A stretch of 64,000 nt of DNA, from the NCBI RefSeq assembly GCF_000376945.1, contig NZ_AQXU01000018.1, forward strand, positions 62,001-126,000, read 5' to 3'. The position numbers were made by a program, and so were the translations under genes. Positions 47,231-64,000 of this stretch are shown here, piece by piece. Below the pieces are notes generated by a model. It made no database searches. It was given only the letters and a program-made list of their open reading frames with translations, and had not been told where the DNA came from. Position 1 is the stretch's first letter; the number at the start of each line of letters is the position of its first letter. This DNA comes from Leeia oryzae DSM 17879 (GTDB lineage Bacteria; Pseudomonadota; Gammaproteobacteria; Burkholderiales; Leeiaceae).

Positions 47231-47941
47231 ATGACCGACGCCCATACCCCCAAAACCCTGTTCTGGCTAGGTGCCAGAGACATCCTGCCCATGCTGGTAG
47301 GTGCCGCGCCGTTCGGGATCATTTTTGGCGCCCTGGCCGCCACCAGCGGCATGTCGCTCTGGCATGGTCCGTTGATGTCGTCGATTGTCTTTGCAGGCTC
47401 CAGCCAGTTTATCGCCGTCGGGCTGGTAACCGGCCACGCCAGCATGGTACTGATCTGGCTGACCACCTTTATCGTCAACCTGCGCCATGGCCTGTACGGC
47501 GCCACCCTGCTGCCGCATGTCAGCCATCTGCCGTTGCGCTGGCGCCTGGGACTGAGCGCCATTCTGACCGACGAAGCCTTTGCCGTGATGGTGGGCCACT
47601 ACCGGACCCACCCGGACAACCCGCATTCGCACTGGTATTTTCTGGGGTGCAGTCTGGCCATGTACGTCAACTGGCAGTGCTGTACCCTGATCGGGGTGTT
47701 GTTCGGGCAGGCCTTTCCCGGGCTGGAACACATGGGGCTGGACTTTGCCATGGCCGTCACATTCATCAGTATTGTGGTGCCGCAACTGGTAACCCGCCCC
47801 AAACTGATTGCCGCGCTGATCTCTGCCGTGGTGGCGGTGGCTACACTGGGCTGGCCTTACAAGCTGGGCCTGATGACCGCCATCCTGGCCGGTGTGGCTG
47901 CCGGCATGCTGCTGCACAAACACAAGGAAGCTGCCAAATGA
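47231..47941 (+). CDS. azlC: AzlC-family amino-acid exporter, large subunit
   Basis: 236 residues, seven to eight membrane helices, with the family start (PMLVGAAPFGIIFGALA) and FAGSSQFIAVGL, LRHGLYGATL and TDEAFAVM. With the small AzlD subunit it exports branched-chain amino acids and analogues (YgaZH in E. coli, AzlCD in Bacillus). It overlaps azlD by 4 bases. Confidence 0.9.
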   Translation: MTDAHTPKTLFWLGARDILPMLVGAAPFGIIFGALAATSGMSLWHGPLMSSIVFAGSSQFIAVGLVTGHASMVLIWLTTFIVNLRHGLYGATLLPHVSHLPLRWRLGLSAILTDEAFAVMVGHYRTHPDNPHSHWYFLGCSLAMYVNWQCCTLIGVLFGQAFPGLEHMGLDFAMAVTFISIVVPQLVTRPKLIAALISAVVAVATLGWPYKLGLMTAILAGVAAGMLLHKHKEAAK

Positions 47942-48255
47942 ACTACACCCTGATGATTGTCGGCATGATGGTCGCCACCTTTGCCACCCGGGCGATTTTC
48001 TTTGTGCTCGGGGACCGCATCCGTTTTTCAGAGACCCTGAAAACTGCACTCGGGTTTGTGCCGGTGACGGTACTGACAGCCATTACTGTACCCATGCTGC
48101 TGGTGCCCAACGGCTCGCTGGATCTCAGTTACCGTAACCCCTGGCTGGTGGGCGGCGTGGTCACCGTCTTCACTGCCCTGTTGCAGAAGAACCCGCTGGT
48201 GACCATCGTGATCGGACTGGCGGCTTTTTTCGCCTACAAGCACTGGCTGCTCTGA
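47938..48255 (+). CDS. azlD: AzlD-family amino-acid exporter, small subunit
   Basis: 105 residues, about four membrane helices, with FATRAIFFVLGDRI, FVPVTVLTAITVP and NPLVTIVIGLAAFF, typical of AzlD. It starts at an ATG inside the azlC stop (ATGA). It is the partner of AzlC in the export complex. Confidence 0.9.
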   Translation: MNYTLMIVGMMVATFATRAIFFVLGDRIRFSETLKTALGFVPVTVLTAITVPMLLVPNGSLDLSYRNPWLVGGVVTVFTALLQKNPLVTIVIGLAAFFAYKHWLL

Positions 48256-48276: not shown

Positions 48277-49866
48277 TTATGCTCCCTGCCCTACCGGGCG
48301 CACATACACGGCGCAGGGCGCGCCGCGGCGGTCTGGCAGGTCCTGGTGATGCTCGAACCCCATCTGCTGATACAATCTGACCGCGGTTTTGAAGATCGGA
48401 CTGGTATGCAACCCCAGCGTCGAGACGCCGTCCCGCTGCGCCCGCTGGATGCACGCCTCTACCAGCTGACGGCCAACCCCGAGTCCCCGGGCATCCGGAT
48501 GAACGGACAGCATGCGGATCACGCCCCAATCCGGCTGAAATACTGGCTCGCGCAGCCGACCGGGGGCCACATAGCCGACCGACCCGATCACGACGCCATT
48601 TTTCTCGGCGACCAGCAGTTCTGCATCGTCGGCCAGCTTGGCCGTTGAGGCGAGGACATCGACAAAACCCTGCCAGTGATCCAGGTCTTTCCGGAACTGA
48701 TAGAACGCATCCAGGGCAACTTGGTTCACCGCGGCATAATCGGTCGCCTGATAGCGACGGATGGTGATCTGCTCACGGGGAACGTGCCGGTGCCGACGCC
48801 GCCACAACCCTTCTGGCCGGTAACGCATCATCAGGATCAGGGCCAGCCCGAAGATCAGCATGCGCAGCGTCCCGGCATCCAGCAGGTGCGTCCAGACAGC
48901 AGGGTTCACCAGCGACACATGCTTGACCAGCAGGGGGTGCACCCATTCAATGACATCGCGCAGCACTTCCGGCAGCACCGTCAGCAGCACGGCCCCAATG
49001 ATCACCCCGGGAATGGACCCCATGCCCCCCAGCACCACCATCACCAGCAGCATGGTGGATTCGCCCAGAGTAAAGGATTCCGGGCTGACAAACTGCTGGA
49101 AACTGGCAAACAGCGCCCCGGAAATGCCGCCAAACGCCGCCCCCATCGAAAAAGCCAGCAGCTTGATGTTGCGCTTGTTAAGGCCGGTGGCTTCTGCGGC
49201 CACTTCGTCTTCGCGCAAGGCCATCCAGGCACGGCCGATGCGGGAGTTTTCCAAGCGATGCGACACCTGCACCAGCAGCAGTATCAGTGCGAGGAACACA
49301 AAGTAGTAGTTGATGACCGGGGTTAGCGTAACCGGCCCGATGGACCAGGTGGTGAGGACCGACAGCTCGCCGGCATGCAGGGGCTGTATGCCCATGATGC
49401 CTTGCGAACCGCTGGTGATGTCGAACGGGCGGTCCAGATTCACCACAAAGATGCGGATGATTTCACCAAAGCCGAGCGTCACGATGGCCAGATAATCGCC
49501 GCGCAGCTTGAGGGTGGGTGCGCCCAGAAGCGCCCCCGCAACCCCCGCCAGCACGGCGGCCAGCATCAGGATCAGCCAGACCGGCCAGTCGGTGGGTGTC
49601 GTCGCCAGCCCGGCGCTGAACAGGTGCGGTGACGCCAGCAAGGCGTACAGATAAGCGCCCAGCGCATAAAAGCCGATGTAACCCAGATCCAGCAAGCCGG
49701 CATAGCCCACCACGATGTTAAGCCCGAGCGCCAGCATGGCATACAGCATGGAAAAGCAGGCCACCCGTACCCAGGCATCTCCCAGAAACGGGGCACCGTG
49801 CAATACAAACGGCAACACCACCAGCAACAAGGCCAGGGCAATGGTTTTTTTAGGATGGAAACGCAT
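48277..49866 (-). CDS. LivM-type ABC permease fused to a GNAT acetyltransferase
   Basis: 529 residues in one uninterrupted frame. Residues 1 to about 355 are a branched-chain amino-acid permease of the LivM type (LNIVVGYAGLLDLGYIGFYA, KLRGDYLAIVTLGFGEI, LREDEVAAEATGLN). From about 365 to 529 it is a GNAT domain with the acetyl-CoA loop VHPDARGLGVGRQLVEA and LYQQMGFEHH. The ATG at 49866, behind GAGGGGAC, starts the permease. No livH, livG, livF or livK is nearby. The junction (about 48770-48800) could be a genuine fusion or the result of a lost stop codon. Confidence 0.85.
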   Translation of the reverse strand: MRFHPKKTIALALLLVVLPFVLHGAPFLGDAWVRVACFSMLYAMLALGLNIVVGYAGLLDLGYIGFYALGAYLYALLASPHLFSAGLATTPTDWPVWLILMLAAVLAGVAGALLGAPTLKLRGDYLAIVTLGFGEIIRIFVVNLDRPFDITSGSQGIMGIQPLHAGELSVLTTWSIGPVTLTPVINYYFVFLALILLLVQVSHRLENSRIGRAWMALREDEVAAEATGLNKRNIKLLAFSMGAAFGGISGALFASFQQFVSPESFTLGESTMLLVMVVLGGMGSIPGVIIGAVLLTVLPEVLRDVIEWVHPLLVKHVSLVNPAVWTHLLDAGTLRMLIFGLALILMMRYRPEGLWRRRHRHVPREQITIRRYQATDYAAVNQVALDAFYQFRKDLDHWQGFVDVLASTAKLADDAELLVAEKNGVVIGSVGYVAPGRLREPVFQPDWGVIRMLSVHPDARGLGVGRQLVEACIQRAQRDGVSTLGLHTSPIFKTAVRLYQQMGFEHHQDLPDRRGAPCAVYVRPVGQGA

Positions 49867-49931: not shown

Positions 49932-50038
49932 TGAAAAAACAAGCGACCTGTCTGATGCAGACTTGATTAAGCTCATGTTCTGCCTGATTATTATTAACTT
50001 GACACCGTATGACAAACGGAAAATACTTGCTGTACCCA

Positions 50039-50051
50039 TGAATCAGATTCA
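50039..50051. promoter_or_regulatory. MetR-box site at the regulator start
   Basis: TGAATCAGATTCA is an exact TGAA-N5-TTCA palindrome that ends 5 bases before the regulator start codon. Occupancy there would fit autorepression, as known for LysR-type regulators. Confidence 0.5.
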
Positions 50052-50056
50052 TACAG

Positions 50057-50992
50057 ATGACCACCAAAAGCCCGCTGGAAATCCGGCACCTCTACACGCT
50101 ACTGACACTGGCCCGCACTGGCAGCTTTACCGAAACCGGACGCCTGCTGCACCTGACCCAGTCCGCCATCTCCTATCAGATCAAGGCACTCGAAGAACAC
50201 TACCGGGTGAAGATTTTCGAACGGAAAACGCTGCCGCCGCGCTTTACCATGGCCGGGCAAAGCCTGCTGGAACTGGCAAGGGTGGTGCAGGATCAGGTCA
50301 GTTCTACCGAGCACGATCTGGAGCGGATTGCGCGGGCCGAAGCCGGACAGCTGCGGATCACCGTCAGTTGTCACTCCTCGTTTGACTGGCTGCTGCCGGC
50401 CAATGAACGCTTTCATGAACGCTACCCGGGGGTGCTGCTGGATTTTGTGATGGGCTGGCCGACCGACCCGGTGACGATGCTGAAACAGGGCATTGCCGAC
50501 GTCATCATTGCCGAGGAAGTCGATGAACCGGCCGTGGTGCAGCAACCGATGTTTTCATTTGAGGTGATGGCGGTACTGCCCAAAGGACACGCCTTGCTGG
50601 CCAAACCGTTTCTGACGGCTGCCGACTTTGCGAACGACACCCTGATTACCTACCCGCTGCCCGATAACCGCCTGGATGTGGTGCACAAGGTGTTGCAGCC
50701 GGCGGGCATTACCCCGCCACGCCGGACCAACGAGTTTACCGCCGCGATTGTGCAACTGGTGGCACTGGGACACGGGCTGGCCACCCTGCCGGCATTCGGG
50801 GTGGCTGATTATGCAAAGCGCGGTTACGTGGAAGTCCGGCCAATTACCGAACACGGTTTGTATTGCGACCTGTTTGCCATCATCCGGCCGGAATCTGCCC
50901 GCATTGGCTATGTGGCAGCGTATCTGGATGAAATCCGCACGGCGGGCACCCGGCATGTCGCCCAGATCTGGCAACCGGCAGGGGCCGCCTGA
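50057..50992 (+). CDS. LysR-family regulator of the MetR type
   Basis: 311 residues. An N-terminal winged helix (about 5-65; TETGRLLHLTQSAISYQIKAL) is followed by a periplasmic-binding-like effector domain. Its effector half resembles MetR: SCHSSFDWLLPANERFHERYPGV and TYPLPDNRLDVVHKVLQPAG correspond block by block to MetR. MetR senses homocysteine and controls methionine genes. The two MetR-type palindromes in the divergent promoter support the call, and livM-GNAT is the likely target. Confidence 0.8.
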   Translation: MTTKSPLEIRHLYTLLTLARTGSFTETGRLLHLTQSAISYQIKALEEHYRVKIFERKTLPPRFTMAGQSLLELARVVQDQVSSTEHDLERIARAEAGQLRITVSCHSSFDWLLPANERFHERYPGVLLDFVMGWPTDPVTMLKQGIADVIIAEEVDEPAVVQQPMFSFEVMAVLPKGHALLAKPFLTAADFANDTLITYPLPDNRLDVVHKVLQPAGITPPRRTNEFTAAIVQLVALGHGLATLPAFGVADYAKRGYVEVRPITEHGLYCDLFAIIRPESARIGYVAAYLDEIRTAGTRHVAQIWQPAGAA

Positions 50993-51004: not shown

Positions 51005-52480
51005 TTACGCGTCGCACACGTCCCGCATCAGACGCACGCTGTCGGTGATGTCTTCTGTTGCCACCGCACCATAACCCAGCACCAGCCCGTTGCCGTCCTG
51101 CGCCTGCTGCCGGTAGTACGACAACAAGCGCAGTGACAGCCCCTGTGCTGCCGCTCGCACCGCCCAGCCATCGGCATCCAGTGGATGTTGCCATTGCAGG
51201 GTGAGGTGCAGGCCGGCATGGCCGCCAGACAACACAAACTCGGGGCCAAAGTGCTGCTGGAGCGCTTGCCGGAGCACCTGCTGGCGTTCGGCATAAATGC
51301 CGCGCATGCGGCGGATGTGGGTAGCAAAGTAGCCGGCATCGATAAAATCGGCCAGCGCCGCCTGCAACACCAGCTGACCCGGCCGATACAGCTGGGTCAG
51401 CGCCACCCGGAAGGCCGGTGCCAGCGATGACGGCACCACCAGATAACTCAGCCGCAGCCCCGGATACATCACCTTGCTGAACGTCCCCAGATAAATGACC
51501 CGCTCATGGTCATCCAGCCCCTGTAATGCGGGCAGCGGCTTGCTGTCGTAACGGAATTCGCTGTCGTAATCGTCCTCGACGATCCAGACACCTTGCGCGC
51601 GCGCGTATGCCAGCAGCTGATGGCGCCTGGGCAGACTCATCGGAATACCCAGCGGGTACTGATGCGCAGGGGTGGTCAGCACCAGCTTGGGTGCGGGGTG
51701 GCCGGACACGGCCATCTGATCACAGCAGATGCCTTCCTGATCCACCGGCACGCCATCCACCACGAGCCCCGCGGCCTGCCAGACCAGACGGGAGCTGGTA
51801 TTGCAGGGCTCCTCCACCAGTGCACGGTCCCCTGCATCAGCCAGCATGCGCGCGCACAGGTCCAGCGACTGGCGCGTGCCCGTGGTAATCAGGATCTGGT
51901 CCGGATGGCAGCGCACCGCCCGGGAAACCTGCAGATAATCGGCCAGCACCCGCCTGAGCGGCGCGTACCCCCCGCTGGTGTCGTAACCGGAGAGCAAGGC
52001 AGCGTCCTGCTTGCCGCGGCGGTTTTGCAGCCGCTGCCAGATGGCAAACGGGAAATGACGGGTATCGGCCACCCCGGGCACAAAAGCACCCGCCGGGGCC
52101 AGCATGGTTTTGGGCCGTGCCAGCAATTGCCCTGCGCGTTGCGACAGCATCGTCTGGGGCGGGACACTGGCCGTGGCTGGCGGCGGCACCTGCCGGGAGG
52201 ACGGCAAGCTATGGCCGACAAAGGTGCCGCTGCCGTGGCGCGCCTGCAGGTAGCCTTCGGCCTGCAACTGGTCAAAGGCCAGCGTGACGGTGATTCTGGA
52301 CAATTGCAGTTCACTGGCCAGCGCCCGCGTGGAAGGCAAACGCTGGCCGGCCACCAGCACGCCATCCAGGATGGCCTGTCGGATGGCGGCATAGAGCTGG
52401 CGCTGCAAGGGTTGCGCCGCATCGCGCGACAATCGGGCCAGCAGCAAATCGGCCAACGGGGTGGACACCAAAGTGGACAT
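51005..52480 (-). CDS. MocR-family (GntR-aminotransferase) regulator
   Basis: 491 residues. A GntR winged helix (about 18-85; GQRLPSTRALASELQLSRITVT) is joined by a linker to a full fold-type I aminotransferase domain with the PLP lysine in YLGTFSKVMYPGLRLSY. In this family PLP or a PLP-amino acid adduct is the signal. It converges with the MetR-like gene and is divergent from the kinase/PLP-enzyme pair, which it probably controls. Relation to PdxR, GabR or TauR cannot be settled from sequence. Confidence 0.88.
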   Translation of the reverse strand: MSTLVSTPLADLLLARLSRDAAQPLQRQLYAAIRQAILDGVLVAGQRLPSTRALASELQLSRITVTLAFDQLQAEGYLQARHGSGTFVGHSLPSSRQVPPPATASVPPQTMLSQRAGQLLARPKTMLAPAGAFVPGVADTRHFPFAIWQRLQNRRGKQDAALLSGYDTSGGYAPLRRVLADYLQVSRAVRCHPDQILITTGTRQSLDLCARMLADAGDRALVEEPCNTSSRLVWQAAGLVVDGVPVDQEGICCDQMAVSGHPAPKLVLTTPAHQYPLGIPMSLPRRHQLLAYARAQGVWIVEDDYDSEFRYDSKPLPALQGLDDHERVIYLGTFSKVMYPGLRLSYLVVPSSLAPAFRVALTQLYRPGQLVLQAALADFIDAGYFATHIRRMRGIYAERQQVLRQALQQHFGPEFVLSGGHAGLHLTLQWQHPLDADGWAVRAAAQGLSLRLLSYYRQQAQDGNGLVLGYGAVATEDITDSVRLMRDVCDA

Positions 52481-52562: not shown

Positions 52563-53627
52563 ATGGATGCGCCGATGACCACACCCGCCAGTAACCAGCT
52601 CTTTTCCACCATGGCTGCCCGCACCTCCCTGGAAGATGCCGCCGCCTGTCTGTGGCAACACTACGGTCTGCGTGGGGTGGCCAGTCCGCTCAACAGCGAA
52701 CGGGACGAGAACTTTCACATCCGGGCCGACAATGGTCAGGAGTACGTGCTGAAATTCACGCACCCAGCCGAAGACCCGGGGGTGACCGACTTCCAGACCC
52801 GGGCCTTGATGCATGCCGCCCAGCGAGATCCTGAGTTACCCATCGCCCGGATCATGCCGCGGCTGGATGGCGAGCCGTACGGACGGGTGCAGATTGATCA
52901 TGGACCCGCACGCATCTTGCGCCTGTACAGTTACCTTCAAGGAACACCCCTGCACCAGATCAGCCGCACCCCGGCCCAGCGCCGGCATCTGGGCATGACC
53001 CTGGCCCGGCTGAACATCGCCTTGCAGGACTTTAGCCATCCGTCGGCAGGCCACGAACTGCTCTGGGACATTCAGCACTCCGAACGCCTGAAACCGCTGA
53101 TGGACGGCATGCCCGTCGGCCCGCGCCGTGACCTGTCCGAACGCTTCATGCACAACTTCGAGACCGTGGTGCAGCCGCGTCTGGCCAGCCTGCGCAAGCA
53201 GGTCATCCACAACGACCTGAACCCGTATAACGTGCTGGTAGACCCGCACGACCATACCACCACCGCCGGCCTGATCGACTTTGGCGACATGGTGCACGCC
53301 CCGCTGGCCAACGAGCTGGGCGTTGCCTGCTCCTACCAGCTATCGCAAAACGAGAACCCGCTGGATACGGCGGCGGAACTGATTGCCGGCTATCACGCGG
53401 TGAATCCGCTGCGGCCTGATGAAATCGACCTGCTGTACGACCTGATTGCCGCCCGCCTGCTGATGACCGTGACCATTACCGGCTGGCGCGCCCGCCAGTA
53501 CCCCGAAAACGAAACCTACATCCTGCGCAACAACCGCTTGTCGTGGGACGGACTGGAGCGCATTGCCGCGGTCCGGCGTGAAGACGCGCAACGCTACCTG
53601 CGCCACATCTGTGAGATGGAGAACTGA
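52563..53627 (+). CDS. Phosphotransferase (hydroxylysine/ethanolamine kinase-like)
   Basis: 354 residues with an aminoglycoside-phosphotransferase-type kinase fold: a start with LNSERDENFHI, the Brenner motif HNDLNPYNVLV (catalytic Asp) and the metal site DFGDM. The family includes hydroxylysine, homoserine and choline-type kinases. Followed after one base by a class III PLP enzyme of the phospho-lyase type, it most likely phosphorylates a small amino alcohol or hydroxy-amino acid. The start could also be the ATG at 52575. Confidence 0.78.
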   Translation: MDAPMTTPASNQLFSTMAARTSLEDAAACLWQHYGLRGVASPLNSERDENFHIRADNGQEYVLKFTHPAEDPGVTDFQTRALMHAAQRDPELPIARIMPRLDGEPYGRVQIDHGPARILRLYSYLQGTPLHQISRTPAQRRHLGMTLARLNIALQDFSHPSAGHELLWDIQHSERLKPLMDGMPVGPRRDLSERFMHNFETVVQPRLASLRKQVIHNDLNPYNVLVDPHDHTTTAGLIDFGDMVHAPLANELGVACSYQLSQNENPLDTAAELIAGYHAVNPLRPDEIDLLYDLIAARLLMTVTITGWRARQYPENETYILRNNRLSWDGLERIAAVRREDAQRYLRHICEMEN

Positions 53628-53628
53628 C

Positions 53629-54960
53629 ATGAGCCAGAAAGACCCCCGCATGGCCAACGCCTTTGACCCCGGCAAGCTGGGTGACCTGCCCGCCCGGGAG
53701 CAGGCACTCATTGCCCGCCGCCAGCGCACGCTGGGCCAGGCTTACCGGCTGTTTTACGAACACCCGGTGCACGTGGTGCGTGGCGAAGGGGTCTGGCTGT
53801 ACGACCCGGACGGCACCCCGTATCTGGATGTATACAACAACGTGGCGTCGGTCGGGCACTGTCACCCGCGGGTAGCGGATGCCATTTACCGGCAAGCCAC
53901 CACGCTCAACACCCACACCCGCTATCTCAATGAAGTGATTCTGGATTACGCCGAGCGCCTGCTGGCGACCTTGCCGGCGGCCACCAGCCAGACCATGTTT
54001 ACCTGCACCGGCAGCGAAGCCAACGACCTGGCGCTACGGCTGACGCGTGCTTTTACCGGCGGGACCGGCATCATTGTCACCGCACACGCCTACCATGGCG
54101 TCACCAGCAGCATTGCCGAACTGTCCCCGTCCTTTGGCCCGAACGTACCGTTAGGGGCGCATGTGCGCACCGTGACGCCGCCCGACCCTTACCGCTATCC
54201 GGACGAAGCCGTAGGAGAACGCTTCACCCGCGAGGTACAAGCCGCCATTGATGACCTGCTGGCCAACGGCATCCAGCCAGCAGCGCTGCTGGTGGACACC
54301 CTGTTTACCAGCGATGGCGTGTTTGCCGACCCGCCCGGATTTCTGGCCGGGGCCGTCGAGGCCATCCACCGTGCCGGCGGGCTGTTCATCGCAGATGAGG
54401 TACAAGCTGGCTTTGCCCGCTCCGGCAGTCATTTCTGGGGCTTCCAGCGCCACGGCATCACACCGGACATCGTCACCATGGGCAAGCCGATGGGCAACGG
54501 CCACCCGATTGCCGGTCTGGCCGCCCGCCCGGAAATCATCGATACCTTTGGCAGCAAGGTGCGCTACTTCAATACCTTTGGCGGCAACCCGGTTTCGTGC
54601 GCGGCCGGCATGGCAGTGCTGGACGTGATCCGGGACGAACAGCTGCAGGACAATGCCCGCATGACGGGCGCCTACCTGAAAGCCGGGTTTGAACAACTGG
54701 CAGAAAAACATGACCTGATCGGCGATGTGCGCGGCGCCGGATTCTTTCTGGGGGTAGAAATGGTGACCGACCGGCAGGCACGGACACCCGCCCGCGAAGA
54801 AACCGCCAGAATCGTCAATGCCCTGCGGGAAAAGCACATCCTGATCAGCGCCACCGGTCCACACGGCAACACACTGAAGGTAAGGCCGCAACTGCCCTTC
54901 TCGGTCGACAATGCCGACTTGCTGCTCGGGACGCTGGATGACGTGCTCACCTCGCTGTAA
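53629..54960 (+). CDS. Class III PLP enzyme, phospho-lyase-like aminotransferase
   Basis: 443 residues of aminotransferase class III. The PLP lysine lies in [17 protein letters not shown] and the acidic PLP-contact region is [14 protein letters not shown]. This wording around the lysine is that of the ETNPPL/PHYKPL branch, which removes phosphate and ammonia from O-phosphoethanolamine or 5-phosphohydroxylysine rather than transaminating. A one-base gap to the kinase supports a two-step kinase then lyase pathway. Ordinary aminotransferase activity remains possible. Confidence 0.8.
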
Positions 54961-55918: not shown

Positions 55919-56818
55919 TTAGCGGGTAAATGCCTTGGCCAGCTCGGCAATATGGTCCGGGGAAATGCCGCAGCAACCGCCAACGATGGTTGCACCCTGG
56001 TCCACCCAGCGTTGCGCCCACTGCAGGTAGTTTTTAGGTCCCAGATCTTCACGCAGTTCATCCAGCCCTGAGTTGGCTTCTGCATCTTTCGGTTGTGGTG
56101 GGAAGGCATTGGCGTACACGCCAACTTCAACCTGTGCCCCGGCCGCGTCGATTACCTGCCGCGCCGCCTTGACCGCAGACTCCATCACTTCTGGCTGGCT
56201 GCAGTTAAACAGGACAGCTTTGACGTTCAGGGCCAATGCCGCACGCACTGCATCAGCCACGGCTTCGCCTGAGCGCAGGCGAACATCCGCACCGGCAAAT
56301 TCGTCATCCAGCGTAAACGATACCCAGAACGGCTTGCTGTTACCGGCCAGCGCGGTATGCGCCGCGCGGATTTCTGCAATCGAGCTTTGGGTTTCTGCCA
56401 GCCATACGTCGACATGCGCATCCAGGCCCTTGATCAGGGTCTGGTGGATACGGATGGATTCGGCCTCGTCAAACAGGTCTGGCCGATAGGAGCCCAGCGC
56501 AGGCGAGAGTGACCCCGCCACGGTCACCGGATGCGCTGCCTTGCGGGCAGACTCGCGCGCCAGCTCGCCAGACAACCTGGCCAGTGCTTCGCCCTGTGCG
56601 TTAAAACGCTCGTCACCAATGTGAAAAGGCACCACGGCATAGCTGTTGGTGCTGATGATCTGCGCGCCGCTCTGGATGAAGGCATCGTGCGCCTGCACCA
56701 CAAATTGTGGCCCCTCCATCAGCGCCAGTGCCGACCATTCCGGCTGGCGGAAAGGCGCACCGATACGGTTGAGTTCGCGGCCCATGCCGCCGTCCAGAAT
56801 CTTTACTTGTGTTGCCAC
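55919..56818 (-). CDS. Homocysteine S-methyltransferase (MmuM-like)
   Basis: 299 residues from a GTG at 56818 behind GGAGAA. The start KILDGGMGREL, the zinc ligand Cys in FNCSQPEV and the two-Cys motif GGCCGISPDHI match the MmuM/BHMT family. It methylates homocysteine to methionine using S-methylmethionine or SAM, in the cytosol. It is last in the run with the importer and the cystathionine-type enzyme, so methionine recycling is the likely job. Confidence 0.85.
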   Translation of the reverse strand: MATQVKILDGGMGRELNRIGAPFRQPEWSALALMEGPQFVVQAHDAFIQSGAQIISTNSYAVVPFHIGDERFNAQGEALARLSGELARESARKAAHPVTVAGSLSPALGSYRPDLFDEAESIRIHQTLIKGLDAHVDVWLAETQSSIAEIRAAHTALAGNSKPFWVSFTLDDEFAGADVRLRSGEAVADAVRAALALNVKAVLFNCSQPEVMESAVKAARQVIDAAGAQVEVGVYANAFPPQPKDAEANSGLDELREDLGPKNYLQWAQRWVDQGATIVGGCCGISPDHIAELAKAFTR

Positions 56819-56990
56819 GTGGTTTCTCCAGTCTGGCAAGGCGCCCCTCCGGCCGGTAGGGTATGTGCGCCCTGCTTTGTTCATGCAAAAAGCGTTTTCT
56901 TGTTTCCGTTGTATCAGGGTAAACGCAACGGGCTGCCGATATCAACCGTCAACAGACAGCCGGATACCGGACGTTTGAGTGATTGCCAGA

Positions 56991-58160
56991 TTACAGCTGG
57001 TCCAGCGCCTGCAGGATATCGGCATTGATATCGTCACTGTGTTCGATACCGATGGCGTAGCGCACCAGGTTCACCGGGATACCCGCGGTTTTCATCTGCT
57101 CCGGCGTCAGGGTGCCTGCCCACATGGCTGCGGCATGGATCACCAGCGAATCCACCCCGCCCAGGCTAGGCGCGTTGACGGGCAGCTTCAGCAGCGACAC
57201 AAAGCGGCTGGCGGTGTCGTAGTCACCGTCGATCATGAACGAGACAATGCCACCAAAGCCTTTCATCTGGCGTTTGGCCAGTTCGTGCTGCGGATGACTT
57301 GCCAGCCCCGGGTACAGCACGCGCTGTACCTTCGGGTGCGCTTCCAGCGTCTGCGCCAGCGACAGGCCGTTCTGGTTGACGCGGTTCATCCGCATCGGGA
57401 AGGTTCTGAGGCCGCGCAGCAGCAGCCAGCTGTCCATCGGTGACAAGACCGAGCCCAGCGTGATGTGGGTTTTCCAGATACGGGCGGCCAGTTCTTTGCT
57501 GGTACACACCACACCCGCGGTCAGGTCATGGTGCCCACCCAGGTATTTGGTGGCGCTCTGCACCACGATATCCACCCCCAGATCGTGCGGGCGCTGGTTA
57601 AACGGGGTCGCCAGCGTATTGTCAGCCAGCGTCAGGATGCCCTTTTCGCGCGCCACCCGGGTTACGGCTTCGATGTCGGTAATCGCCAGCATCGGGTTGG
57701 ACGGAGTTTCCAGCGTGATCAGGCGGGTGTTCGGACGAATGGCATCGATAAAGGCCTGGGCATCGGCCTGGTCCACCAGGGTGATTTCCACGCCAAAGCT
57801 GCGCAGCATTTCGTCCAGAATCCGGCTGGTACTCATGTAGTGGCGTGTCTGCCCGATGACATGGTCACCCGCTTTGACGAACGACAGGATGGAAGAAGAG
57901 ATTGCGCCCATGCCGGAACCCATGACCAGCGCGGTTTCCGTGCCTTCGAACTCGGCCAGGATGGCTTTGATGCGCTCATGCCCCGGATTGCCGTAGCGGG
58001 TGTAATTGCGCGGGTGCTGCGGCACCTCGGACATCTCGATGAACTCTTCCGGGCTGTCGGCGCGGAACACGGCCGAGTAGTTGATCGACGGGGCGACGGT
58101 TTTATCGTCAGTCACGCCGTAATCGGCATGAATCGCCAGGGTATCGAGGTGATAGGTCAT
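56991..58160 (-). CDS. Cys/Met metabolism PLP enzyme (cystathionine lyase-like)
   Basis: 389 residues, fold-type I PLP enzyme of the MetB/MetC/MetY class. The PLP lysine is in QSATKYLGGH, with TRYGNPGHERIKAILAEFEG, GSGMGAIS and ETPSNPML also diagnostic. Reaction choice (beta-lyase, gamma-lyase or gamma-synthase) is not decided by what I can see. The ATG at 58160 follows AGGAGA. Next to an importer and MmuM, production of homocysteine from cystathionine is a reasonable reading. Confidence 0.85.
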   Translation of the reverse strand: MTYHLDTLAIHADYGVTDDKTVAPSINYSAVFRADSPEEFIEMSEVPQHPRNYTRYGNPGHERIKAILAEFEGTETALVMGSGMGAISSSILSFVKAGDHVIGQTRHYMSTSRILDEMLRSFGVEITLVDQADAQAFIDAIRPNTRLITLETPSNPMLAITDIEAVTRVAREKGILTLADNTLATPFNQRPHDLGVDIVVQSATKYLGGHHDLTAGVVCTSKELAARIWKTHITLGSVLSPMDSWLLLRGLRTFPMRMNRVNQNGLSLAQTLEAHPKVQRVLYPGLASHPQHELAKRQMKGFGGIVSFMIDGDYDTASRFVSLLKLPVNAPSLGGVDSLVIHAAAMWAGTLTPEQMKTAGIPVNLVRYAIGIEHSDDINADILQALDQL

Positions 58161-58206
58161 GTCTGCATCTCCTGCCTGCCGCAGTAAAACAATGGGGGAT
58201 CGGGGT

Positions 58207-58237
58207 CGGGCAAACCCCGGGGATGGATGTTTGCCCG
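58207..58237 (-). repeat. Hairpin between the permease and PLP enzyme genes
   Basis: CGGGCAAAC (58207-58215) and GTTTGCCCG (58229-58237) form a perfect 9-bp stem with a 13-base loop, without a T-run. It may be a processing or attenuation site. Confidence 0.4.
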
Positions 58238-58248
58238 CGTGGGTCTTG

Positions 58249-58950
58249 TTAGCGACGGATGTGCCGGGTATTGCGGTGTTCGGCAAACCGGACCACCAGC
58301 GAGATGGTCAGCGTCGTCAGGGCATAGATCACCCCGGCAATGATCAGCGCATCGGTGGTGTACGACCGGGCCGACAGCCGGCGAACGATGCCGGTCATGT
58401 CCAGCACGGTAATGGTACTGACCAGCGCCGTGGCCTTGAGCTGGGCAATCACTTCGTTGCCCAGTACCGGGGTCACGATGCTCAGTGCCCGCGGGATGAT
58501 GATGTAGCGGTAGCACTGGAACTTGCTCAGACCATACGCCGTGGCGGCTTCTTTCTCGCCGTGCGGGACGGCCATGATCCCGGCGCGCACGTCTTCAGCC
58601 ATGTAGGCGGTCAGGTTGAGCGCCAGCACGGTAATGCCGCAATAGAAAGAATCACCCAGCAGTGGCCAGATCACCGAGTTGCGCACGGCTTCGAACTGGC
58701 TCAGCCCGTAATAAAAGATAAAGATCTGTACCAGCAGTGGTGTACCGCGGAAAATCGACGAATAGGTACGGGCAAACTGTCTTAGCCAGGCGTTTTCTGA
58801 CACGCGGGCAATCGCCAGGGGCACGGCCAGCAGGAAGGCAAAGAAACAGGAACCGGCCAGCAGCTTTAGCGAGACAATGAAACCGTCCAGAATTTCCGGA
58901 CCGCTCTCGATCAGCAGAGTGTAGTAATCATCAAACAGAGACATGCTCAT
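58249..58950 (-). CDS. Polar amino-acid ABC transporter permease (HisM-like)
   Basis: 233 residues, about five membrane helices, with IFRGTPLLVQIFIFYYGLSQ and the EAA-loop sequence GEKEAATAYGLSKFQCYRYI, which contacts the ATPase. It is paired by a 4-base overlap with the permease gene upstream. Together they form the membrane channel for a polar amino acid. Confidence 0.92.
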   Translation of the reverse strand: MSMSLFDDYYTLLIESGPEILDGFIVSLKLLAGSCFFAFLLAVPLAIARVSENAWLRQFARTYSSIFRGTPLLVQIFIFYYGLSQFEAVRNSVIWPLLGDSFYCGITVLALNLTAYMAEDVRAGIMAVPHGEKEAATAYGLSKFQCYRYIIIPRALSIVTPVLGNEVIAQLKATALVSTITVLDMTGIVRRLSARSYTTDALIIAGVIYALTTLTISLVVRFAEHRNTRHIRR

Positions 58951-59624
58951 GACCTCGCTGTAAAGCCACGGTTTGCCATTTTTTCCAGATAGGCAAATAC
59001 CGGGTTAGAAATCGCCAGAAACAGAAAGTAAATGCCCGCCACTGCCACAAAAAACACAAACGGCTGCTTGGTGTACTGGGCGGCCATGTCGGCCTTTTTC
59101 AGCAGGTCTTCCAGACCCACCACCGATACCAGCGAGGTATCTTTCAGCAGCGATTGCCACATATTGTTCAGACTGGGCAAAGAAATCCGCCACGCCTGTG
59201 GTAACTGGACATAAAAGAACATCTGGGTACGCGACAGGCCATAGGCCTTGGCCGCTTCAATCTGCCCGACCGGTACGGCATTGAACGCACCGCGGAACAC
59301 TTCGGACGCGTAGGCCGAAAACACGATGGCCAGCGCAAACACGCCACCGACAAACGGGCTGATCTCGAAGACCCCGTCAAACTGGTTGTTGATCAGGTTG
59401 GACAAGCCGAAGTAACAGATCAGGATGATCAGAAACTCGGGCACGCCACGCAAAAAGTTGGTGAAGAAATTCACCGTGCGGCGCAAGTACGTATAGCTGG
59501 ATAACTTGCAGGCAGCAAAAACCAGGCCCAGTACCAGACCAAACAATAGTGCGGTAAACGCCAGCTGCAGGGTGACAGACGCCCCCAGCAACAACTGTTC
59601 ACCGTAACTGAGCAGGATATCCAT
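58947..59624 (-). CDS. Polar amino-acid ABC transporter permease (HisQ-like)
   Basis: 225 residues from the ATG at 59624 (AGAGGAG upstream). Contains LRGVPEFLIILICYFGLSNL and the EAA loop GQIEAAKAYGLSRTQMF. Second half of the membrane pair; coupled to the next gene by ATGA. The upstream in-frame extension lies in the hairpin region and is not used. Confidence 0.92.
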   Translation of the reverse strand: MDILLSYGEQLLLGASVTLQLAFTALLFGLVLGLVFAACKLSSYTYLRRTVNFFTNFLRGVPEFLIILICYFGLSNLINNQFDGVFEISPFVGGVFALAIVFSAYASEVFRGAFNAVPVGQIEAAKAYGLSRTQMFFYVQLPQAWRISLPSLNNMWQSLLKDTSLVSVVGLEDLLKKADMAAQYTKQPFVFFVAVAGIYFLFLAISNPVFAYLEKMANRGFTARS

Positions 59625-59648
59625 TCGTACTCCTCTAAACTTTGCAAA

Positions 59649-59670
59649 GGTGCCGGCCAGGGCCGGCACC
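59649..59670 (-). repeat. Strong hairpin between binding-protein and permease genes
   Basis: GGTGCCGGCC (59649-59658) and GGCCGGCACC (59661-59670) form a 10-bp GC-rich stem with a very small loop, just past the binding-protein stop. Such hairpins commonly stabilise the upstream mRNA and lower downstream expression, giving more binding protein than permease. Confidence 0.6.
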
Positions 59671-59689
59671 CGTCACTACGCTGCCGGGC

Positions 59690-60475
59690 TTACTTGCTGG
59701 CAGGTGCAATACTGAAAGGGAAAACCTTTTTGTTGGCTTTGGCAAACGTGCCATCGCTCAGGATTTGCTTGATGGCCGCGTTGTATTTGTCTTTCAGCGC
59801 ATCGCCCTTGCGAACGGCAATCCCGGTACCTTCACCGAACATCGCGACATCGTTGATGGCCTTGCCGGCATAGTTAAAGCCGTCTTTCTTGCCGGTCTTG
59901 TTGATCCAGTCGTAAGACACGGTGGTATCGGCCAGCACGGCGTTCACACGGCCGGCTTCCAGATCCAGCCAGGCCTGATCCAGCGACTGGTAAATCTTCA
60001 GTTCGATACCGGACTTGTCTTTTGGCAGACGGGTTTTCAGGTAGCTTTCGTGGTTGGTACCGCTTTGTACGCCTACGATCTTGCCTTTGAGCGTGGCTGG
60101 GTTCTCAGTAATGCCAGAACCTTTTTTCGCTACGTATTGCACCGGTGCCAGGGTAAACAGGTTGGTGAAATCGACGACTTTCTTGCGTTCGTCGGTAATG
60201 GACATCTGTGCCAGTACCGCATCGATCTTCTTGGCTTTCAGGGCAGGAATCAGGGCATCAAAGTCCATGGTCACGTATTCGCACTTGACCTTCATCTGCT
60301 TGCACATCACGTCGTTCAGTTCGATTTCCATGCCTTGCAGCTTGCCGGTGGCATCCTTGAATTCGAATGGCGCGTAGTCGGACAGGGTACCTACCTTGAC
60401 CACCTGTTCAGCATGAGCCGCCAGGCCCAGCATCAAACTACCGGCAACAACAGCGCTTAGGGTTTTCAATTTCAT
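59690..60475 (-). CDS. Periplasmic amino-acid binding protein (ABC importer)
   Basis: 261 residues. A signal peptide (to about AAHA) precedes a family 3 binding domain with VGTLSDYAPFEFKDATGKLQ, the Arg-binding-type region ALKAKKIDAVLAQMSIT and GVQSGTNHESYL. It resembles HisJ/ArtJ/GlnH-class proteins; the ligand is not determined. The ATG at 60475 follows AGGAGA. The ATPase gene is 32 bases upstream. Confidence 0.9.
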   Translation of the reverse strand: MKLKTLSAVVAGSLMLGLAAHAEQVVKVGTLSDYAPFEFKDATGKLQGMEIELNDVMCKQMKVKCEYVTMDFDALIPALKAKKIDAVLAQMSITDERKKVVDFTNLFTLAPVQYVAKKGSGITENPATLKGKIVGVQSGTNHESYLKTRLPKDKSGIELKIYQSLDQAWLDLEAGRVNAVLADTTVSYDWINKTGKKDGFNYAGKAINDVAMFGEGTGIAVRKGDALKDKYNAAIKQILSDGTFAKANKKVFPFSIAPASK

Positions 60476-60507
60476 CTTTGCTCTCCTGATTGAACAATCG
60501 TCAACAA

Positions 60508-61305
60508 CTACTTGGTGGCCATACTTGAAAGAAACTTCTGGAAACGTGGCGATTTCTGGCTGGCAAACAGTTCTGCCGGCGGACCGTCTTCTTCGACCTT
60601 GCCCTGATGGAAAAACACCACCCGGCTGGCCACTTCACGGGCAAAGCCCATTTCGTGGGTCACCACCAGCATGGTGCGGCCATCTTCGGCCAGCGAACGC
60701 ATGACCTTGAGCACTTCACCCACCAGCTCCGGGTCCAGCGCCGAGGTCGGCTCGTCAAACAGCATGACGTCCGGCTCCATGGCCAGTGCACGCGCAATGG
60801 CCACCCGCTGCTGCTGCCCGCCGGACAACTGGTTAGGGTAATGGTGGCGTTTTTCGGCCAGACCTACCTTCTCCAGATAGGCAATGGCGGCCAGCTCTGC
60901 GTCCCGCTTGTCGATGCCCAGCACCTTGACCGGTGCGAACATCACGTTTTGCAGCACGGTCATGTGTGCCCACAGGTTGAACTGCTGGAACACCATTGCC
61001 AGCTTGCGACGAATGCGTACCATCTGCTGCGCGTCTGCCGGGTAGGGCAGGCCATCGCGGCCGGTGGCCATCTTGATCAGTTCACCATTCACGTACACAC
61101 GGCCGGCATTGGGCATTTCCAGCAGGTTGATACAGCGCAGGAAGGTACTTTTGCCCGAGCCGCTGCTGCCCAGAATGGTAATCACATCATGCTTTTTGGC
61201 CGTCAGGCTGATCCCCTTCAGGACTTCAGTCTGGCCAAACGACTTGTGCAAGTCTTCAACTACCAGCACGTCTCTGGCATGACTATTAGTTTCTGTACTA
61301 CTCAC
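60508..61305 (-). CDS. Polar amino-acid ABC transporter ATPase (HisP/GlnQ-like)
   Basis: 265 residues from a GTG at 61305 spaced 7 bases from AGGAGGA. Walker A is GSSGSGKST, the signature [16 protein letters not shown], Walker [14 protein letters not shown] and the switch His in VVTHEM. HisP-type insertion ([11 protein letters not shown]) suggests the histidine/arginine/octopine class. The frame is open to a GTG at 61440, but the ribosome site and family length favour 61305. It is first in the six-gene run. Confidence 0.93.
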
Positions 61306-61371
61306 TTGAGTGTCCTCCTGACTAAATGGACGGAATATGACCTGGATGACGACCGGAACACCGGATGAAGC

Positions 61372-61397
61372 CAGGTTCTGAAAGTAAACAGAACCTG
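61372..61397 (-). promoter_or_regulatory. Leader hairpin of the ABC operon
   Basis: CAGGTTCTG (61372-61380) and CAGAACCTG (61389-61397) form a perfect 9-bp stem with an 8-base loop within the untranslated leader, about 65 bases before the start codon. I do not recognise a known riboswitch. Confidence 0.4.
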
Positions 61398-61448
61398 ACT
61401 CACAGACAATGCCTGTTACGCATTCATGTAAGTTAGGCACACATTTTT

Positions 61449-61476
61449 ATAATATATAACCTAAACTTATCGCCAA
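61449..61476 (-). promoter_or_regulatory. Sigma-70-like promoter of the ABC operon
   Basis: On the minus strand TTGGCG (61471-61476) and TATTAT (61449-61454) are 16 bases apart and lie in an AT-rich stretch. The expected leader is about 135 bases. Confidence 0.5.
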
Positions 61477-61561
61477 GCGTTGCAACATATATGAAACCAC
61501 CTGTGTTGAGAAGCATTAAGTAAAAGATTTCACCTAAAGGGCGGGATTCCCCCTGATTATA

Positions 61562-61574
61562 TGAATTTTGTTCA
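61562..61574. promoter_or_regulatory. MetR-box-like palindrome upstream of the ABC operon
   Basis: TGAATTTTGTTCA, an exact TGAA-N5-TTCA with the central T, about 90 bases upstream of the predicted -35. It is also 1 base too short to be an ArgR-type ARG box. One such match per window is expected by chance, so it is only suggestive. Confidence 0.3.
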
Positions 61575-61600
61575 TAAACCAGCAGCACCCCGCTTTTGCC

Positions 61601-63016
61601 TCACCCGCGATTGATACACACCACTTTGGGTTGCGACATCTCGGCGACCGAGAAACGCACGCCTTCCCGCCCGAGTGACCCGTGCTTGAAACCGCCAAAC
61701 GGCATGCCGTCGAACCGGTAGTCAGACGAATCATTGATCATGATGCCGCCTGCCTCGATGCGCTCGGCCGCTTGGAGCGCGGTCTCCAGATTGCGGGTAA
61801 AAATGCCGGCATGCAAGCTGCTTTCGCTGCGGTTGGCTTCAAGGATGGCGTCTTCAAAATCCTCGAACGGCGCAATGCTCACGACCGGGGCAAACACTTC
61901 CTCGGACCAGACCAGACTCTCCGGTGAGACATCCGTCAGGACCGTGGGCTGGTAGACGCTGCCCTGGCGACGGTGACCACAGACCACGCGGGCGCCCTGC
62001 CGTACGGCATCATCTACCCACTGCTCGATCCGCCGTGCCTGGAACTCGGTAATCATCGGCCCCATGTCGGTCGTTTCCTGTAGCGGGTCACCGGTTACCA
62101 TCTGCCGGGTTTGCTCGGCAAACTGCGCCACAAACGCCTCATACACCGAGGCCTGCACCAGAATCCGCTGAGTGCCGATACAGTTCTGCCCGGCGGCCCA
62201 GAAAGACCCGGACACGCACGACGCTACGGCCGCGGCCAGATCACAATCTGCCATCACGATAACCGGCGCGTTACCACCCAGATCCATGGCCATTTTCTTC
62301 AGACCCGCCGCACGGGTAATGGCCTCGGCCGTTTTGGTACCGCCGGTAAAACTGATCATGCGGATGTCGCGTTCGCGGACCAGCGCTTCGGCCAGGTGTT
62401 TTTCGCCATGCACCACCTGCAACTGACTGGTCGACAGCCCTGCAGCCCACAACACCTCGGCCAGCTTCTGGGCCGACAGCGGCGCCAGTTCGGACGGCTT
62501 CAGGATCACCGCATTACCGGCAGCAATGGCCGGCCCCAGCTTGTGTGCCGCCAGATTCAGCGGATCGTTAAACGGGGTGATGGCCAGAATGATGCCCAGC
62601 GGCTCCTGGGTAAAATACCCCTGACGCTGCTCTGAGCCCTGGTAGGCGCTGAACGGAATCACTTCGCCACCCAGGCGCTTGGCTTCTTCTGCCGACAGGC
62701 GCAAGGTATTGATACAGCGCGCCACTTCTTTGCGCGCCTGGCGGATCGGCTTGCCGGACTCGGCCGAGATGGTGCTGGCAAAGGTTTCCACCTGGCTGGC
62801 AATGGCATCTGCCGCCCCGTTCAAGATCTGAGCCCGGTCGTGACGGGACATGCGGCGACCGATGTCAGCCCCGGCCCGGGCCCGTTGCATCACCATCGGC
62901 ACGTCGTCCACCTCGGTGAACGGCACGTAGCCGACAATGCGTCCGTCAAAAGCAGCATACACCGTCAGGTTTTCAATGGCTGGGGTCATGGCGACCGCTT
63001 CACGCAAGATGTTCAT
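61601..63016 (-). CDS. NAD(P)-dependent aldehyde dehydrogenase
   Basis: 471 residues of the ALDH superfamily. The cofactor region has ITPFNDPLNLAAHKLGPAI and KPSELAPLS, FTGGTKTAEAI follows, and the catalytic Cys lies in AAGQNCIGTQRI. The usual general-base Glu is replaced by Asp at residue 245 (MDLGGNAP). It lies 7 bases after a homoserine dehydrogenase, so its substrate may be an amino-acid semialdehyde; aspartate semialdehyde is one guess. The ATG at 63016 follows GAGGA. Confidence 0.85.
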   Translation of the reverse strand: MNILREAVAMTPAIENLTVYAAFDGRIVGYVPFTEVDDVPMVMQRARAGADIGRRMSRHDRAQILNGAADAIASQVETFASTISAESGKPIRQARKEVARCINTLRLSAEEAKRLGGEVIPFSAYQGSEQRQGYFTQEPLGIILAITPFNDPLNLAAHKLGPAIAAGNAVILKPSELAPLSAQKLAEVLWAAGLSTSQLQVVHGEKHLAEALVRERDIRMISFTGGTKTAEAITRAAGLKKMAMDLGGNAPVIVMADCDLAAAVASCVSGSFWAAGQNCIGTQRILVQASVYEAFVAQFAEQTRQMVTGDPLQETTDMGPMITEFQARRIEQWVDDAVRQGARVVCGHRRQGSVYQPTVLTDVSPESLVWSEEVFAPVVSIAPFEDFEDAILEANRSESSLHAGIFTRNLETALQAAERIEAGGIMINDSSDYRFDGMPFGGFKHGSLGREGVRFSVAEMSQPKVVCINRG

Positions 63017-63023
63017 CGGGTCC

Positions 63024-64000
63024 TCACTTCTTGATACGGTCGTTCAAATCAATCAGGTCTGACAGCATGGCAAACGCCGTTTCATGGCGGCCAGCGCCAG
63101 GTCCGGAGACGGTCATCGCCCCCAGCAGGTCAGTGGTAAACGTCACGGCATTGTTGGCGCCATGTGCGGCCAGCAGCGGGTCGGTCAGCGGCAGTTTCTG
63201 CGGCCCGACCGTCCCGTTGATGCTGCCGTCGGCCTGCTGGCGGCCTTCGCCGATCAGGCGCCAGGCGTATCCTTCTGCGCGGGCCTCACGTACCTGCTGT
63301 TCTGACAAACCGGTAATGCCTTCCCGGGCGATCTCGGCCGGTTTCATGCCGTTACCCCACAAGGCGTTGGCCAAAATCGCCACTTTCAGTTGCACATCCC
63401 AGCCTTCGACGTCAGCGGTCGGGTCGGCTTCGGCATAACCCAGTTGCTGGGCTTCGCGGATGGCGTCAGCAAAACTGGCGCCGGCCTCCACCTGGCTCAG
63501 CACAAAGTTGCAGGTGCCATTGAGGATGCCGCGGAAACCGCTGATGTCACAGCCGCGCAAGGTCACGTCCAGCTGGCGCAGTACCGGGGTACCGCTCATC
63601 ACCGTGCCTTCGAACAGGAACTGCACGCCCATTTCGCTGGCCAGCGACTGCAGCGCATGCCCGGCCAGCGCCAACGGCCCTTTGTTGGTGGTAATCAGGT
63701 GCTTGCCGGCGCTTAAGGCGGTGCGGCAATGGCTGAGCGCCGGTTCGCCGGTTTGCGGGTTGGTAAAGGTGGCTTCCAGCACCACATCCACGCAGTTCAG
63801 CTGAATCATGGACAGAGTCTCTGCCAGCGAAGCACCACCACGCTGGGTACCGGCCTTGGCCAGCACGTCATCTACCGCGTACCCCTTGGCCGGCAGGGCG
63901 ATCAGCGCATCCAGATCCAGACCGTCTTCATGCCAGATGGTCCCGAACCGCATGTCGGATACCGCCGTGATGTTCAGGGTCATGCCATAGCGGTCTGCCA
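63024..64000 (-). CDS. hom: Homoserine dehydrogenase (partial, N-terminus outside window)
   Basis: The frame stays open past the ATG at 63983 to the window edge (codons read ADRYG before it), so the NAD-binding Gly motif lies outside. Present are TTNKGPLALAG with a conserved Lys, the substrate block GTVMSGTPVLRQLD, ILNGTCNFVLSQVE and the full signature AQQLGYAEADPTADVEGWDV followed by QLK with the catalytic Lys. The protein ends without an ACT domain, so threonine feedback through ACT is unlikely. It precedes the ALDH by 7 bases. Confidence 0.9.
   Translation of the reverse strand, partial: ADRYGMTLNITAVSDMRFGTIWHEDGLDLDALIALPAKGYAVDDVLAKAGTQRGGASLAETLSMIQLNCVDVVLEATFTNPQTGEPALSHCRTALSAGKHLITTNKGPLALAGHALQSLASEMGVQFLFEGTVMSGTPVLRQLDVTLRGCDISGFRGILNGTCNFVLSQVEAGASFADAIREAQQLGYAEADPTADVEGWDVQLKVAILANALWGNGMKPAEIAREGITGLSEQQVREARAEGYAWRLIGEGRQQADGSINGTVGPQKLPLTDPLLAAHGANNAVTFTTDLLGAMTVSGPGAGRHETAFAMLSDLIDLNDRIKK

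Follow-up and report, generated by a model that had tools for sequence, protein, structure and literature searches.

A LivM-GNAT gene fusion and its junction

The window analysed here, a 64-kb stretch of DNA, carries on its minus strand a gene that we call livM2-GNAT (48277..49866), which encodes a LivM-type ABC permease (residues 1-355, 48802..49866), a mostly basic linker (residues 356-365, 48772..48801) and a GNAT acetyltransferase (residues 366-529 plus the stop codon, 48277..48771). From the ATG at 49866 to the stop at 48277 the frame runs for 529 codons without interruption. It remains open upstream of this ATG, and AGAGGGG, about 9 nt 5' of it, makes a good ribosome-binding-like site. 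Both domains were recovered by Pfam far over cut-off, BPD_transp_2 at residues 34-345 (E 1e-47; profile positions 4-267 of 269, thus near full length) and Acetyltransf_1 at residues 410-504 (E 2e-17). With a GC3 of 0.79 for LivM and 0.74 for GNAT, the two halves both look coding in the same frame. The initial annotation had reported a single 529-residue frame with a complete LivM followed by a complete GNAT domain and its acetyl-CoA loop, and this was confirmed by the open frame, the Pfam matches and the fold. We conclude that the two domains of livM2-GNAT are genuinely fused in frame within one gene.

The junction covers residues 354-366 (about 48770-48807), in agreement with the earlier placement near 48770-48800. 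Whereas an ordinary LivM ends in RPxGLWPS and a charged tail of about 10-45 residues, the fusion reads RPEGLW-RRRHRHVPRE-QITIRRY, with the linker in place of the tail, and its ITIRRY is the point where stand-alone GNATs start (MEITIRHY in L036). Between the LivM end and the first GNAT strand there is no in-frame ATG, GTG or TTG, the last candidate being a TTG at residue 354, and stops interrupt the remaining two frames across the junction. The GNAT half thus lacks a start codon from which it could be translated separately, and its translation depends on LivM. Loss of a stop codon or a wrong base between genes that were each intact, the outcome considered beforehand as fatal to the fusion, was rejected because the halves are in frame and no GNAT start codon follows the LivM end. 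The 15 residues after the last helix of the LivM half include six K/R, which suggests that the C-terminus is cytoplasmic; use of acetyl-CoA requires the same.

The convergent neighbours of livM2-GNAT are azlC and azlD (47231..48255, plus strand). AzlCD was set aside as a functional partner because, in a fusion-free congener, azlCD keeps its neighbourhood of xseA, cobW and araC. The syntenic place in that congener (L091) reads xseA-cobW-araC-azlC-azlD and then continues with other genes, and in the other congener (L089), also without the fusion, azlC and xseA likewise lie close together. azlC-azlD are thus probably unrelated to the fusion, which is located in an accessory segment missing from both congeners.

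The gene had been described as lacking Liv partners. This holds locally: when LivH, LivG and LivF of this genome were run by tblastn against the 64-kb window, no Liv partner was found, and the only matches, 25-27% identical and at 60.5-61.3 kb, fell on the ATPase of an unrelated ABC importer for polar amino acids. It does not hold for the genome (3.79 Mb, 99.97% complete), where the search for livHGF elsewhere led to one ordinary and complete livH-livM-livG-livF operon on contig C24, adjoining genes that read as flagellar flhB/flhA. Both congeners carry the same operon. Against this single livH, the genome encodes about 11 LivJ/K-type periplasmic binding proteins (PF13458), in which the congeners are likewise rich, and a single transporter core may serve many such proteins. 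The operon and the binding proteins together mean that an accessory LivM has partners to join.

Origin and distribution of the two halves

The LivM half is 64% identical to the LivM of the C24 operon, hereafter the resident LivM. The LivM model NF008450 gave the fusion protein 271 bits, below its cut-off of 366 and over model positions 94-387 of 418, vs 92 bits for UrtC and 38 for LivH; by these scores and by the tree described below, it belongs with LivM and not with LivH or UrtB/C. AlphaFold2 pLDDT of the LivM half is mostly 80-95. It keeps 91 of the 94 strictly invariant LivM positions (ordinary copies in the genus keep 91-92), and its coupling-helix stretch, REDEVAAEATGLNKRNIKLLAF, is nearly identical to that of the resident LivM. 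Otherwise conserved positions are altered at N149D, N152S, P154S and G258Q, and also at P356. The LivM half has the whole permease fold and the coupling-helix region in common with the LivM of the LIV-I/LS importer (BPD_transp_2, NF008450), from which livM2-GNAT differs in having no adjacent livH, livG, livF or binding-protein gene and a GNAT domain instead of the C-terminal tail. LivM-LivG and other ABC permease-ATPase fusions exist; in LivM-LivG, as in livM2-GNAT, a Liv permease bears an extra C-terminal cytosolic domain, but the added domain is then the ATPase of the transporter itself.

A maximum-likelihood tree was built from 58 LivM proteins (the LivM half and 57 LivM-like sequences). 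In it, the LivM half clustered with the three LivMs of its own genus with 100/100 support, on a branch of 0.62 vs 0.03 for the resident copy. Its position within the genus clade is weakly supported, which would fit either an old, fast-evolving duplicate or arrival from a more distant relative. Most likely, the LivM half is a second LivM of the type native to the genus, which has either diverged or been acquired from a relative. For the long branch and the changed conserved positions, new specificity and relaxed constraint would be equally fitting explanations.

The GNAT half carries the acetyl-CoA loop (R/Q)xxGx(G/A) as RGLGVG at residues 460-465, with the R and the three G invariant in all aligned relatives. 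Since the alignment for the full-length AlphaFold2 model held LivM sequences only, the GNAT half of that model is poor and its placement relative to the channel cannot be read from it; a fold search with the full-length model gave no match at E<=0.001. A mixed LivM and GNAT alignment was left unused, as it misplaced GNATs onto LivM. Modelled alone, the GNAT half reached a pLDDT of 92.9 with the standard GNAT order of helices and strands, and the fold search matched it at E<=0.001 to 863 PDB chains, of which the best listed are all acetyltransferases. Among these best matches are YncA, phosphinothricin and tabtoxin acetyltransferases and ArsN, GNATs with amino acids or amino-acid analogues as substrates; at about 20% identity, such predicted likeness does not fix the substrate of the GNAT half. 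At the sequence level it is weakly similar to N-terminal and ribosomal-protein acetyltransferases.

The GNAT half is 35-47% identical to stand-alone GNATs that occur here and there in the order, and it keeps 33 of the 43 residues invariant in that family. These proteins (for example L036, L037 and L038) resemble it over the whole domain and their first strand starts alike, but they are separate genes of about 160-190 aa, whereas the fused half has no start codon. No Liv genes were found beside the stand-alone relatives, so that nothing there hints at a role in transport prior to the fusion.

The initial annotation had proposed to ask whether the two-domain architecture recurs in several genera with the same neighbours. 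It was not found in relatives or in samples taken at the level of order, class and phylum, which comprised roughly 1,100 different genomes (with only the 3-4 best candidates per genome scored in the larger samples). It is missing from both congeners, a pattern scan that covered 84,980 species genomes but is sensitive to close relatives only did not find it, and it was not found among the best 60 plasmid records; two other records, outside those 60, cover at least 80% of the query, weakly. As far as can be seen from these samples, a single species has the architecture. A search of the literature library used here found no publication on LivM-GNAT or permease-GNAT fusions. Because of the single-species occurrence, evolution offers no proof that joining the two domains is useful.

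The divergent regulator and operator-like sites

Divergent from livM2-GNAT lies a gene for a LysR-type regulator (50057..50992, plus strand; Pfam HTH_1 and LysR_substrate). Its best NCBIfam model is MetR (NF011950) at 192 bits vs a cut-off of 382, so the protein is MetR-like only. The 190-bp intergenic region contains a weak sigma-70-like promoter, TTGTCA-17-AATAAT (49987..50015, minus strand), which reads towards livM2-GNAT (2 sites were found vs 1.1 expected in shuffles), and a MetR-type operator-like site, TGAATCAGATTCA (50039..50051, plus strand). The latter lies about 65 bp upstream of the livM2-GNAT transcription start that the weak promoter match implies, and about -65 is the usual place of a LysR-type recognition site. 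A perfect MetR-type site arose in 28 of 5000 shuffles of the intergenic region.

The MetR site has been published as TGAAnnTnnTTCA (PMC5002191) and in another form as TGAANNNNNTTCA (PMC13393422). Perfect matches to TGAANNWNNTTCA number two in the window, vs 0.35 expected, one of them in the divergent intergenic region. The second (61562..61574, plus strand; a perfect match in 4 of 5000 shuffles) precedes a set of possibly co-regulated minus-strand genes (55919..61440) that comprises an ABC ATPase (60508-61440), HisM/HisQ-type permeases (58249-59669), a methionine gamma-lyase-like gene (56991-58286) and a homocysteine S-methyltransferase (55919-56884). Besides the methyltransferase, the lyase-like enzyme and the polar-amino-acid ABC importer, the cluster at 55919-63983 also holds an aldehyde dehydrogenase and a homoserine dehydrogenase. 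Genome-wide, the operator scan gave 43 sites vs 22 for a reversed control pattern, and of the sites inspected in context most fall within genes. The scan was therefore rejected as a definition of a regulon, and the operator pattern is a lead.

Five exact copies of the 13-mer TGAATCAGGTTCA, counting its complement, are present in the genome (C13:19753, C21:150190, C23:163242, C24:211981 and C24:355091); those whose context was read lie within genes or where genes begin. A paralogue of the MetR-like LysR gene is divergent from a glutamine-amidotransferase-like gene both in the same genome (L147, C23:161500-165000) and in a congener (L090), where an EamA-like transporter gene, named by eye from its sequence, comes next. 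Within the window, genes for an APH phosphotransferase and a class-III aminotransferase overlap in tandem (52563-54960); they correspond to the ends (5-343 and 582-1009) of the 1015-residue single-protein family PRK06148, the middle part of which is missing here. A MocR-type regulator (51005-52480) adjoins this pair on the opposite strand.

Possible roles of the fusion protein

We asked what such a protein might do. In the reading that we find most likely, with a probability of roughly 0.4, an accessory LivM pairs with LivHGF and holds at the cytosolic mouth of the channel a GNAT that acetylates the incoming amino acid, under MetR-type control. By this account, a second LivM of the genus type was joined to a GNAT that elsewhere stands alone. 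The LivM half would replace LivM in the resident LivH-LivM-LivG-LivF importer, and one of the many LivJ/K-type binding proteins would serve the exchanged complex. The C-terminus, probably cytoplasmic, would tether the GNAT where acetyl-CoA is at hand, and the enzyme may then N-acetylate an incoming amino acid or analogue of the methionine/homoserine or branched-chain type. Expression would be switched on by the MetR-like LysR protein that is encoded divergently. An exchangeable LivM is suggested by the resident-like coupling helix, the probable cytoplasmic C-terminus and the amino-acid-type GNATs among the fold matches; in addition, the LIV-I importer of E. coli transports L-homoserine too (PMC9792984). 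We also count in its favour the intact frame and domains, the missing GNAT start codon, the 100/100 clade, the 91 of 94 invariant positions, the available partners and the MetR-like regulator with its operator-like sites. Against it stand the single-species occurrence, the stand-alone GNATs with no Liv gene at their side, the altered conserved positions on a long branch and the many operator-like sites elsewhere in the genome.

A stricter form of this proposal, in which an amino acid or toxic analogue would be N-acetylated as it leaves the channel, so that acetylation is vectorial, with the exchanged LivM in a shared LivHGF core and again under MetR-type control, is rather doubtful. The initial annotation had suggested acetylation of the substrate at the membrane or a regulated permease. 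Its two-domain protein is real and the idea is compatible with the data, but the protein does have partners in the genome and the architecture does not recur in the other genera sampled.

The chief rival is a recent neutral fusion, in which a dispensable LivM paralogue captured a GNAT without any coupling of transport to acetylation. One or both halves may still work in this case, and the permease half may be little beyond a membrane anchor. We regard such an origin as somewhat unlikely, if by no means far-fetched. Occurrence in a single species, the branch of 0.62 vs 0.03 for the resident copy and the location in an accessory segment missing from both congeners all speak for it. In contrast, most invariant residues are kept in both halves (91/94 and 33/43), no stop interrupts the frame, and a regulator gene of its own, with an operator-like site, lies divergent to it.

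Two further explanations appear improbable to us. In the first, a sensor or regulated permease, binding of a substrate by LivM would control a protein acetyltransferase, or the GNAT would acetylate LivG/LivF and so throttle uptake. A precedent exists in the actinobacterial ACT-GNAT proteins, a group of 150 members in which an amino-acid-binding domain controls a protein lysine acetyltransferase (PMC6434083). Like livM2-GNAT, they fuse an amino-acid-handling domain to a GNAT; unlike it, they have a soluble ACT domain, protein substrates and no membrane part (PMC6434083). Control of this kind would fit the weak sequence likeness between the GNAT half and acetyltransferases of protein N-termini and ribosomal proteins, but many small-molecule amino-acid acetyltransferases are among its best fold matches, and the neighbourhood suggests no acetylation target.

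In the second, to which we assign an equally small chance, the GNAT would convert an imported amino acid to an N-acetyl product that acts as co-effector of the divergent MetR-like LysR protein. The divergent gene and the operator-like site at about -65 would suit such inducer synthesis, as would the precedent of Salmonella OatA, which makes N,O-diacetylserine and thereby raises expression of the CysB-controlled cysteine regulon (PMC6277577). However, the known co-effector of MetR is homocysteine and no acetylated compound (PMC5002191). Least probable by far is an assembly or sequencing error that fused two separate genes: the fusion is found in one genome only, but the frame is the same on both sides, the coding composition matches, the normal LivM tail is missing and no GNAT start lies between the halves, so that an error would need to have removed a stop and a start while keeping the frame.

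If the fusion is neutral, it would clearly illustrate how a permease and an enzyme have recently been fused. If the two halves cooperate, livM2-GNAT would make the ABC importer one whose cargo is chemically altered as it enters, in a step resembling group translocation. To our knowledge, a step of this kind is known only for other transporter classes. The gene counts in the genus further raise the question of whether one LivHGF core takes different LivM subunits and many binding proteins.
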